Under the pieces are notes generated by a model that was given only the letters and a program-made list of their open reading frames with translations, made no database searches and was not told the DNA's origin. The position numbers and the translations under genes are program-made. A stretch of DNA of 64,000 nt from NCBI RefSeq assembly GCF_900182795.1, contig NZ_FXTX01000002.1, forward strand, positions 62,001 through 126,000, given 5' to 3'. Below are positions 49,602 through 60,073 of the stretch, one piece after another; position 1 is the first letter of the stretch, and every line of letters starts with the position of its first letter. The DNA comes from Venenivibrio stagnispumantis. Its GTDB lineage: Bacteria > Aquificota > Aquificia > Aquificales > Hydrogenothermaceae.

Positions 49602-50711
49602 TTGTCCGAGAAAAAAATCAGAGTAGCAATTGCTGGTGTTGGAAATTGTGCAAGCTCCTTAATACAAGGAATTTATTATTACAAAAAAAAGCAAAATATA
49701 GAAGCCAGCGGTTTAATGCATGAAGAAATAGGCGGATATAAACCGTGGGATTTAGAAGTTGTAGCCGCTTGGGATATAGATGCAAGAAAAGTTGGATATG
49801 ATGTTTCAGAAGCTATTTTTAATTTACCCAACTGTACAACTATATTTGAAAGAGATATCCCACATATGGGAGTAAAAGTTAGAAAAGGAAAGGTTTTGGA
49901 TGGATATCCAGAACATATGAAGAACTATCCACCGGAAAATGCCTTTGTTTTATCTGATGCAAAAGAAGATAGCCTTGAAACAGTAGTAAAAGTTTTAATA
50001 GAATCAAAAGCAGATGTATTAATAAATTATGTACCGGTAGGTGCCGAACAAGCAGCAAGATTTTATGCACAGGCGTGCCTTGAAGCTGGTGTTGCTTTTG
50101 TAAATTGCATGCCAACATTTATTGTATCAGATGAAGAATGGGCAAAGAGATTTGAAGAAGCAAATATACCGGCAGTTGGCGATGATATAAAATCTCAGGT
50201 AGGAGCTACAATTACCCATAGAGTATTAACTCAGCTTCTTTTAGATAGGGGAGTAAAAATAGATAGAACATATCAATTAAATGTTGGTGGAAATACTGAC
50301 TTTTTAAATATGCTTGAAAGAAGTAGATTAGAAACAAAGAAAAAATCTAAAACAGAAGCAGTTACTTCACTTATACCTTACGGAATAGACCCAAGGAATG
50401 TCCATATAGGCCCAAGTGATTATGTTCCTTGGTTAAAAGATAAAAAACTTGCATTCATAAGATTAGAAGGAAGATTATTCGGTGATGTTCCTATGAATAT
50501 AGAACTTAGATTAGAAGTAGAAGACTCACCAAACAGTGCCGGAGTAGCAATAGATGCAATTAGATGTGCAAAAGTAGCTCAGGATAGAGGCATAGGAGGT
50601 CCTTTATACTCTATATCTGCTTATACAATGAAACATCCACCTATCCAGTATAAAGATTGGCAGGCAAGAGAGATGGTTGAAGAATTTTTAGCAGGATTAA
50701 GAGAGAGATAA
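49602..50711 (+). CDS. ino1: Inositol-1-phosphate synthase
   Basis: 369 residues, TTG start with AAGGAGG 9 bases upstream, 13 bases after ser[19 protein letters not shown] is the NAD-binding motif of the prokaryotic/archaeal [35 protein letters not shown] and [11 protein letters not shown] complete the signature. Converts glucose 6-phosphate to inositol 1-phosphate, for inositol phospholipids or thermoprotective di-inositol phosphate. Confidence 0.93.
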
Positions 50712-50713
50712 AA

Positions 50714-52638
50714 ATGGGAAAGTATTAAACAAAAATGAAATTTTAAATACGATAAAATGGCTTATTTCAGAAGCAAAGAATGAAGTTATAATACTCTCTC
50801 CTTGGATAAAAGGAGAGAGTTTTGAAGAAATAACAAAAGATATAAAACAAGATTTAAATATAACAGTTATAATAAGAAGCTCACAATTTTCAGATTTTAA
50901 TATAACAGACCCAAGATTTTTCAAAAAAGCAAAAGAATTAAATGCAGATATTTTTCTAAATCCAAAACTTCATGCAAAATTTATAATAATAGATAAAAAA
51001 ATAGCTTTAATATCTTCTTCAAATATTACACCATCGGGTTTATATGAAGATATTGGCAATATAGAAACTGCAATATTAACAGAAGAAAAAGAAGAAATAG
51101 ATAAATTAATAAACTATTATCAAGAAATAAAATCAAATTCCATTTATTTAAATAAATCAATAGGCATAATTATAAATTCAGAAAATCCATATCTATCAAA
51201 AGCTATAATATTTTCCCAGATACAAGAACAATCTTATATAAAGATAGAAACAGAAAAAGAAACAATATACGGTAGAATAACTAATCTTAAAATGTTAAAT
51301 CCTTCTTTCTTCATTACTCAGCAGTTAAATTATCAATCTGATAAAATAATTCCATTATCAGATGAAGAAAAGTGGAATTTATCAGCTATATATTCATTTT
51401 TATCAGAGAATAATCAAAATATAAAGATAGCAGATATAGAGATATTCGGTAAAATCAATAAAACTCCTTCTCCAAAAGAAGAAAGCATATTCAATCAAAA
51501 CTTAACCCCTATACCACCAACCACATTTATATATCCAATGGAAGAAAAAGATAATCTTATATTTAAAATAAATCATGCCGGATATATAATGGGCTCTCCG
51601 ATTAAATTCGGAAAACTTTTAACAACAGATATAGATATATATTTAGATTTAGATAAAATTGTTCCTATGCATATGGCAGTTCTTGGAACTACCGGTTCAG
51701 GAAAAACAACCTTTATAAGAAGATTTTTAGAAAATATAAATGAAGAAAGGATAAAGATTTATATATTTGATATATATCAGGAATATTCTAAAGTCTTAAA
51801 TGTGGATAATAAAAATATTTTGGCATTTAAAGATAGTTTATTCCCAATAGATATTGGAGATATTAAAGAGTTATTAAAAAATTCAGGGATTGATTTACAG
51901 GAAAGGTCAAGGGAAGAAAAAGCAATTTTTAATTTATTTAGAAAATATATAAAACCGGATTTAGATTTAATAGGTTTTAATCAAAAAAATCTAAAAGAAA
52001 TTATAGAAGAAGCCTCAACAATAAGATTTTTAGAAAGAGATATAAAAGAGCAAATATTGGATTTTATATCTATCTTGATAAAAGATTACTCAGAAGAGGC
52101 AATAACATCTCAAAAAGAAAATATAGAATTAATAAGAAAATCCTTAGATGCCACGGAAAAATTCATCATATATGATTTAAAAAATATAAATAATATAGAA
52201 TCAAGAATAAATATAGTAGGATTAATACTTAAAGAGATATTCAGAAAAGCCCAGCTAACAAAGGAAAAATCTTTAATAATCTTGGAAGAAGCCCATAATT
52301 TTGCACCGGAAAAAGGTTTTGGAGAGATACAAACAGGAAGAGAAAATCTTGCTTTCATAATGGCAAAAAAAATTGCAACAGAAGGAAGAAAATTTAACCT
52401 CGGACTTGTAGCAATAACCCAAAGACCGGCAAATATAAATAAATATGTTCTTTCCCAGTTAAATACCCAAGTTATTTTTAAATTAATAAACAAAAATGAC
52501 CTTGATGCTGTTTCTATCTTTTTTGAAAGCAATAAAGAAGATATATTTAACTTACTTCCTTTTTTAAAACCGGGAAGCTGTTTCATAACAGGATTGGCTG
52601 TTCCGTTTGGCATTTTAGCTAAAATAAAACTCGGATAA
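50714..52638 (+). CDS. PLD-HAS barrel-HerA ATPase fusion, probable frameshift at the start codon
   Basis: One frame is open from 50701 to 52638, but it has no ATG, GTG or TTG before 51292. The best start is ATG 50714 (2 bases after ino1, AGAGAG upstream), one base out of frame: one more G in the GGG at 50716-50718 would join it. Encoded order: a phospholipase-D-type domain with HAKFIIIDKK and SSSN (His codon 50971), a HAS-like barrel (IGIIINSENPYLSKAIIFSQ), and a HerA-type ATPase with Walker A GTTGSGKTT (51685-51711), Walker B SLIILEEAHNF (~52270) and a QRPANINKYVLSQLNTQ segment. Only one HxK motif is seen. HerA hexamers pump DNA for a nuclease; here the nuclease-like domain is fused. About 640 residues if intact. 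CCGG is absent from the PLD part. Confidence 0.75.
50793..50823 (+). terminator. Terminator-like hairpin inside the 5' end of the PLD-HerA gene
   Basis: Perfect 11-bp stem ACTCTCTCCTT (50793-50803) / AAGGAGAGAGT (50810-50820), 6-base loop, followed by TTTG. It lies ~80 bases past the ino1 stop and within the coding frame (SPWIKGES). The short U-run makes it a possible ino1 terminator or attenuator. Confidence 0.5.
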
Positions 52639-58640: not shown

Positions 58641-58949
58641 TTATTTTTCCACCTTTATAAAATATTTAAATTTTTTAAAATTTCTTATATCTGATAACTC
58701 ATTTATATTTTTATAATATCCTAATTCTTCTCTTCTTTCTATGATTTTTATTGCAGTTTTTTCCCCTATATATGGTATTTTTTCAAGTTCTTCAATATCG
58801 GCTTTATTTATATCTACTTTTAAATCTTCTATATTTCCTTTTTTCTTAAATAAATCCAAATTAAGTATGTTAAATAGTATGTATAGCATTAGAATTATAG
58901 ATAATGCATTTTTTTGAAGGTCTAAAAGCTGAGAATCAATCTTTATCAT
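58641..58949 (-). CDS. ComEA-like helix-hairpin-helix protein
   Basis: 102 residues: one N-terminal hydrophobic helix (NALSIILMLYILFNILNL) and a ComEA-type HhH pair (VDINKADIEELEKIPYIGEK, KIIERREELG). The membrane anchor plus DNA-binding fold resembles ComEA, the DNA receptor of natural transformation, but it lies in the nurA cluster. Start overlaps the nurA stop by 4 bases. Confidence 0.82.
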   Translation of the reverse strand: MIKIDSQLLDLQKNALSIILMLYILFNILNLDLFKKKGNIEDLKVDINKADIEELEKIPYIGEKTAIKIIERREELGYYKNINELSDIRNFKKFKYFIKVEK

Positions 58950-60073
58950 TCTAACCCTTCTCTTCCGGTAATTTGTGAAGAAAAACCGAGGATATTTTCA
59001 ATTAATTTAAAATCATCTGATTTTATTCTTACTTCTTTATCTACAAAATTTAGAGGAAAAGGATATCCGTTTATTTCATAAAAATGAAGTATATCAATTA
59101 TTTCTTCTTGTGAAATTGTTTCCATATCCGGATTTTGATAAACTTCAATTAATGATATTATTTTTTTCTCTCCATATTTTGCATAAAAATATTGTAAATC
59201 TATATCTTGTAATTTAAATTTTACTTTATCTTCATATATTTCCGGAAATTGCCATTTTATTTTTTCAACATCTATATATAATTTTTCGGTATATCCGGTT
59301 TCTTCAACAAATTCATAAAATATTCTAATATCCGGCACAGATTTATTAAAAATTTTAGTATCATCGGAAGTTTTTGCTACACCAAATATTAAAGGTTTAT
59401 AATCTAAATTTAATAATTTTGATAAAGTTATAAGTAATTCAAAATAAGCTATTTTTGCAATTATTGCTTCAATTATATCTCTTCTTATTTCTATATTTTG
59501 TTTTTCCAATTTTTTTAAAATTTTGTCTTCTAAATTAAATGCAACTATTTCTTGATTATCTTTTTCAACTTCTTCAATAAAATATGAGGCTATTTCTGAA
59601 AGTTTTTCATCTATATCTTCTTTTATAAACCAATCTGCTTTTGGAAATGGTGTTATAAATCTACTTGATATTGTTCCATCTAATATTATGATATTTGGCT
59701 TATTTTCTTTTGATAGATTATAAAGGGCTTTTGTTTCTGATAAAAACATAACTAATTTAAAATAAGCATCTGCAAAGTTGCTATTTTTTATAACAGATAT
59801 ATCTATATCTCCTACGAATTTTTCTGCTTTTATATTTTCATTTTCAAATAAAATAGAATATCCACCAAATACATAAAGATAAAATCCAAGGTAATGTTTT
59901 TTGTTAAAAGAACCATCTGAAACAGCAACTTTTAAATCTGTAATTGGCTTTGGCTTATAATTTTGCCATTTTGATAGGACTTCCTCTTTTCTTAAAGATA
60001 AATCAATTTTTTTTAGAATTTGGGATAATTTATTTTTTTTTCTTTCTACTTTCTCAATTAGTTCTATTCTCAT
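58946..60073 (-). CDS. nurA: NurA-domain nuclease
   Basis: 375 residues. The NurA metal motifs are visible: KVAVSDGSFNKKH (Asp53) and PNIIILDGTISSRF (second Asp), then a KTSDDTKIF segment and a late LIEVYQNPD. NurA is a 5'-3' nuclease driven by a HerA hexamer in archaeal end resection; bacterial NurA-HerA pairs also occur in defence. A HerA-type gene lies 6.3 kb away on the other strand. Downstream coupling with an HhH and a TPR protein is notable. Confidence 0.85.
   Translation of the reverse strand: MRIELIEKVERKKNKLSQILKKIDLSLRKEEVLSKWQNYKPKPITDLKVAVSDGSFNKKHYLGFYLYVFGGYSILFENENIKAEKFVGDIDISVIKNSNFADAYFKLVMFLSETKALYNLSKENKPNIIILDGTISSRFITPFPKADWFIKEDIDEKLSEIASYFIEEVEKDNQEIVAFNLEDKILKKLEKQNIEIRRDIIEAIIAKIAYFELLITLSKLLNLDYKPLIFGVAKTSDDTKIFNKSVPDIRIFYEFVEETGYTEKLYIDVEKIKWQFPEIYEDKVKFKLQDIDLQYFYAKYGEKKIISLIEVYQNPDMETISQEEIIDILHFYEINGYPFPLNFVDKEVRIKSDDFKLIENILGFSSQITGREGLE

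Follow-up and report, generated by a model that had tools for sequence, protein, structure and literature searches.

A PLD nuclease domain fused to a HerA-type ATPase in Aquificota, probably a self-contained DNA translocase-nuclease

HerA motors work with separate nuclease partners, and docking activates them. The question raised by the present locus is whether motor and nuclease can also be carried by one chain. In a 64,000-nucleotide stretch of the Venenivibrio stagnispumantis genome, referred to here as the window, a single reading frame appears to encode both, yet it lacks a normal start. It has therefore to be decided whether the fusion is genuine, what the broken start means, and what the protein might do.

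The stop-to-stop frame at 50701–52638 on the plus strand is open throughout its 645 codons. Over the 591 bp in front of the ATG at 51292 the other two frames have 33 and 12 stops and this one has none, a result that 3001 Markov shuffles did not once reproduce; this part is therefore coding. The conserved coding part, stop codon included, spans 50719–52638, and all of its features lie on the plus strand. The PLD (HKD) nuclease domain occupies 50719–51150 (Pfam PLDc_2 at residues 21–142, 1.8e-11; PLDc motif, 1.7e-5) and holds the active-site motif H-x-K-x4-D-x6-S-S-x-N at 50971–51024, with H91, K93, D98, S106 and N108 as its residues. A probable HAS-like beta barrel follows at 51163–51459, limits approximate, where a weak Pfam HAS-barrel match (residues 154–206, E 0.0059, 17.1 bits, under the cut-off of 25.2) coincides with strands in the AlphaFold model. 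The HerA-type RecA ATPase domain at 51601–52626 (Pfam DUF87/HerA at residues 301–513, 9.5e-25, 88 bits against a cut-off of 23.2) contains Walker A, GTTGSGKT, at 51685–51708 and Walker B, LIILEEA, at 52273–52293. PADLOC models for HerA (1.7e-41) and for a DrmC-like PLD protein (2.1e-12) match as well. Pfam, motifs and AlphaFold thus bear out the first-pass annotation, which had placed a PLD HxK motif, a HAS-like barrel and the HerA Walker motifs in one frame. Its frame is indeed open from 50701, but coding probably starts at about 50714–50719 and not there. Directly 5′ lies an inositol-phosphate-synthase-like gene (49602–50711), and downstream are a small ORF and a carA-like gene, all named from their translations.

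Judged by sequence comparison, the fusion is not an artefact. Within the window's taxonomic family, 17 further genomes carry full-length single-ORF relatives with 46–52% identity, and together with many other Aquificota proteins these form a discrete single-ORF family, PLD-HerA, of about 610–670 aa. At E ≤ 1e-60, matches occur in 77 of 136 Aquificota genomes, most of them full-length single ORFs and some contig-edge fragments, and in 56 of the 88 of good quality. Across the alignment of 39 members, the motif HxKx4Dx6(G/S)SxN keeps its H, K, D, S and N throughout, and the core residues of Walker A and Walker B are likewise retained. Next in ranking below the family come ordinary HerA proteins, which align over the ATPase only and have no HKD motif. 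Comparison of orthologues, proposed in the first-pass annotation as a check on its single polypeptide, thus revealed full-length relatives carrying the PLD part, and none in the family that starts at 51292 without it. The PLD part and the ATPase part, each in its own tree, show an identical deep division of the family into 26 members, including that of the window, and 13 members (87/87 and 100/100); this would be expected had the two domains come together a single time and then been passed on as a unit, which is probably what happened. A search for separate PLD genes adjoining an ordinary HerA gave one weak case, with the two about 5 kb apart (L086).

Beyond Aquificota, about 85,000 species genomes were scanned, and members turned up on a small number of contigs with the labels Thermotogota, WOR-3, Archaeoglobaceae and Acidobacteria; the scan relied on two ATPase peptide patterns, and more distant fusions could therefore be missed. 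Genome scanning with a single sequence gave no matches, and an alignment-based scan gave matches. Targeted searches found the fusion in 3 of 147 genomes of the group containing the Thermotogota and WOR-3 contigs and in 1 of 59 of the archaeal class. In the tree the Acidobacteria contig groups within Aquificota, which makes mis-binning probable. The Thermotogota, WOR-3 and Archaeoglobaceae members are deep branches, and their MAG contigs may also be mis-binned. A phage or viral origin is rejected, since no full-length match was found in the phages and viral contigs searched. Two relatives are not intact as annotated: in G015, of the same taxonomic family as the window, the gene is broken into several frames and is a clear pseudogene (L022), and the copy on plasmid ece1 of Aquifex aeolicus (L120:5001–6945) is annotated as two genes.

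The start of the window copy is where the difficulty lies. A sequence scan finds no ATG, GTG or TTG in the PLD-HerA frame before 51292, the first normal start, and the ATG at 50714 misses that frame by one base at the run GGG (50716–50718) and reads M-G-K-Y-stop; on both points the first-pass annotation was correct. At the equivalent position an in-frame ATG is present in 17 of 17 other sequences of the family, and therefore the break is private to the window copy and intact copies exist. Of the sites that are invariant in the rest of its family, this copy carries private changes at 10: 8 in the barrel and linker, 1 at the broken start and 1 near the C-terminus. We read the misplaced start as the result of a one-base indel, whether introduced in sequencing or by recent mutation, and the window copy may not be translated. 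Phase variation, suggested earlier, finds little support in a run of only three G and is set aside.

That the break is an error of sequencing or assembly, with the gene intact in the organism, is a serious candidate to which we give somewhat less than even odds. The remaining frame is perfectly kept, and a frameshift survey of 252 kb of the window's genome against a relative, covering 146 conserved genes, met one more apparent single-base break, in an A9 run of a small conserved gene (L137; G000:C3 about 74976–74990). GGG is nevertheless a short run, and the assembly is clean for the most part, with 138 of the 146 genes running close to full length without a change of frame. Alternatively, a real indel at the second codon may have recently stopped production of the full protein, the rest being undecayed so far. 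Such a recent pseudogene, which we consider with roughly one-in-three expectation, agrees with the privacy of the break, with the decayed or split relatives in G015 and on ece1, and with a long terminal branch (0.74). However, no second lesion occurs in 639 codons, every catalytic residue is retained, the private changes fall chiefly in the barrel and linker, and low G+C together with a lack of close relatives confounds the length of the branch. The decayed gene of the first-pass annotation is accordingly narrowed: advanced decay is disfavoured by the intact catalytic motifs, and it is the recent inactivation that keeps its place.

The protein could also be made from the broken start by ribosomal slipping. 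The out-of-phase ATG (50714–50716) overlaps a heptamer G-GGA-AAG (50716–50722), an exact X-XXY-YYZ site for −1 slipping in the ATG frame; the element as a whole spans 50714–50722 (+). Slipping two codons past the ATG would give M-G-K-V-L-N-K-N-E-I, which aligns with the family N-terminus, and a purine-rich stretch, AGAGAGAG, lies about 10 nt upstream. This route is unlikely, since ATG followed by GGAAAG yields the heptamer automatically, the heptamer is not conserved in relatives, which start in frame, and the downstream RNA has no notable structure (z −1.35). Less probable still is production of only a HerA fragment of 448 aa with a vestigial PLD part. Although 51292 is the first normal in-frame start, initiation there would cut the barrel, and every full-length relative has the PLD domain with its invariant motif; a stand-alone HerA from this ATG is rejected.

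Structure models provide the second line of evidence. The AlphaFold2 monomer, built with the family alignment, reaches pLDDT 87.3 and pTM 0.74, and a Foldseek search of the PDB ranks HerA from the HerA-NurA complex of Thermococcus first (9x1m, 2.4e-30), Sulfolobus HerA next, and then the HerA subunits of the complexes with SIR2 and with DUF4297. Modelled alone, the PLD domain reaches pLDDT 95; its nearest structure is NucT of Helicobacter pylori (1.4e-9), and Nuc, SauUSI and BfiI are also matched. With domains and motifs intact, the fusion conserved as a unit, no recurrent partner gene, and both parts matching HerA of HerA-NurA and known single-HKD or PLD nucleases respectively, the best explanation is that PLD-HerA is a self-contained DNA translocase-nuclease, for which we put the probability at about 0.65.

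HerA rings are hexamers, and PLD superfamily chemistry does not require metal. Six PLD-HerA chains would accordingly form a HerA ring, with an HKD domain tied to the barrel end of each subunit; six per ring would be enough for three dimers. The HKD domains are expected to work as dimers, since each active site takes two motifs and an enzyme of the single-HKD type supplies one per chain. Double-stranded DNA would be threaded through the ring by ATP and delivered to the HKD dimers, which would cut it by the phospho-histidine chemistry of the superfamily. Since that chemistry is metal-free, EDTA-resistant cutting is a specific prediction for PLD-HerA. One polypeptide would thereby do what HerA does with a separate NurA, SIR2 or DUF4297. 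Precedent for the geometry exists in HerA-NurA, where a NurA dimer caps the HerA ring and dsDNA passes through to NurA (PMC12977600), and in DUF4297-HerA, where the nuclease sits stacked against the hexamer of HerA and becomes a dimer as the complex assembles (PMC11291478).

The DUF87/HerA domain with Walker A and B places the protein in the HerA branch of the HerA/FtsK superfamily, and the HxKx4Dx6(G/S)SxN motif with the PLD fold places it in the PLD (HKD) superfamily, with one HKD motif per chain. With HerA-NurA it has in common the ATPase and, probably, the barrel, and differs in that its nuclease is of the PLD type and in the same chain, whereas NurA is separate and encoded elsewhere in the genome. 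It scores 98 bits against a cut-off of 970 for the repair-type HerA equivalog (NCBIfam NF040819), and NurA is not adjacent in most relatives. The SIR2-HerA and DUF4297-HerA anti-phage systems likewise combine HerA with a nuclease-type effector, and their PADLOC and PDB HerA models match; PLD-HerA, in contrast, has neither SIR2 nor DUF4297, is one gene, and lies in neighbourhoods that are not defence-rich. Like the PLD-helicase restriction enzymes (SauUSI, the PbeA-type HKD-SF2 proteins and BrxL-HKD), it fuses an HKD nuclease to a nucleic-acid motor, but that motor is a HerA/FtsK ring ATPase instead of an SF2 helicase or the Lon-like AAA+ of BrxL. Fold and motif are shared with the single-HKD nucleases NucT, Nuc and BfiI, which, unlike PLD-HerA, are not fused to a HerA motor. 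The likeness to DrmC of DISARM amounts to 31 bits against an NCBIfam cut-off of 133, and no DISARM genes were found among the matches listed for flanking proteins. HKD-SF2 and BrxL-HKD fusions have already been described (PMC10853773, PMC12839542). Both domains of PLD-HerA are thus well known, and no description of HKD fused to HerA was found in our literature search; the 2004 FtsK-HerA survey lay outside that search, and an earlier mention there is possible.

Which genes surround PLD-HerA depends on the lineage; for the most part they have housekeeping functions (dephospho-CoA kinase, D-Tyr-tRNA deacylase, Obg and others), and they do not form defence islands. No partner gene recurs across the lineages compared, and the defence-type genes among the flanking proteins are isolated (one pAgo, one type III-like methyltransferase, one AbiEii-like gene); a separate partner gene is therefore rejected. 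Neither SIR2 nor DUF4297 is among the Pfam and PADLOC matches listed for 105 flanking proteins, and neither is recognisable adjoining the window gene. NurA is found in 109 of 136 Aquificota genomes and co-occurs with PLD-HerA, so that PLD-HerA as a NurA replacement is rejected. The window's NurA gene (58946–60073, minus strand) lies 6 kb from PLD-HerA on the opposite strand, and the ordinary HerA is on another contig (L002); since both exist separately in the same genome, PLD-HerA adds to them and does not replace them. A distance of 10 kb or less to NurA is seen in Persephonella-type genomes, g7 and the window's genome, not in several other genera, and may be inherited gene order. A small helix-hairpin-helix-type gene (58641–58949) adjoins the window NurA, and in Persephonella-type contigs NurA and such a gene are also found, a few genes 3′ of PLD-HerA.

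As to its role, the most likely one, though weakly inferred, is that of an accessory destroyer of unwanted DNA, whether invading or broken, alongside the cell's own HerA and NurA. Patchy distribution across the phylum, losses and apparent transfers slightly favour it over core repair, and the housekeeping neighbourhoods, which show no defence sign, count against defence. The alternative of a DNA-repair enzyme for end resection or fork processing, not directed at invaders, is a minority expectation with some substance. Chromosomal, mostly housekeeping settings agree with it, as do the RecJ-like gene just 5′ of PLD-HerA in two WOR-3 contigs and a NurA less than 10 kb away in Persephonella, g7 and the window. 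Against repair, whole genera that retain HerA and NurA lack PLD-HerA (for instance g10), the gene is decayed in G015, and NurA and HerA are already in the genome. The broadest form of the accessory reading, a tentative one that we hold at rather below an even chance, is an undescribed, phylum-scale set of one-gene pump-nucleases in Aquificota, stand-alone destroyers of foreign or broken DNA that spread to other vent thermophiles, including an archaeon in which the gene stands beside a prokaryotic Argonaute.

Because the fusion fixes one nuclease per motor subunit and drops the assembly step, it would offer a simple system for the feeding of DNA from pump to nuclease. Should one-gene defence be true, the phylum, in which little work has been done on such systems, gains a compact anti-invader machine. 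Purification should be easy with the thermophilic orthologues.

Several single neighbourhoods are recorded as observed. In the Archaeoglobaceae MAG (L076:867–5181), PLD-HerA overlaps an 806-aa Piwi/pAgo gene by 29 nt (PF02171, 9e-19; PADLOC pAgo), which suggests one operon. This overlap is the only case seen, and Piwi genes occur in 15 of 136 Aquificota genomes with no listed place close to PLD-HerA; a general Argonaute partnership, with adjacency in one archaeal contig only, is rejected. In the two WOR-3 contigs, the RecJ-like gene (DHH, DHHA1 and RecJ_OB; L073:4353–5957 and L081:4343–5962) ends about 35–40 nt 5′ of PLD-HerA on the same strand. In an Aquificaceae contig (L063:7939–10251), a type III-like DNA methyltransferase gene lies directly 3′ of a group II PLD-HerA.
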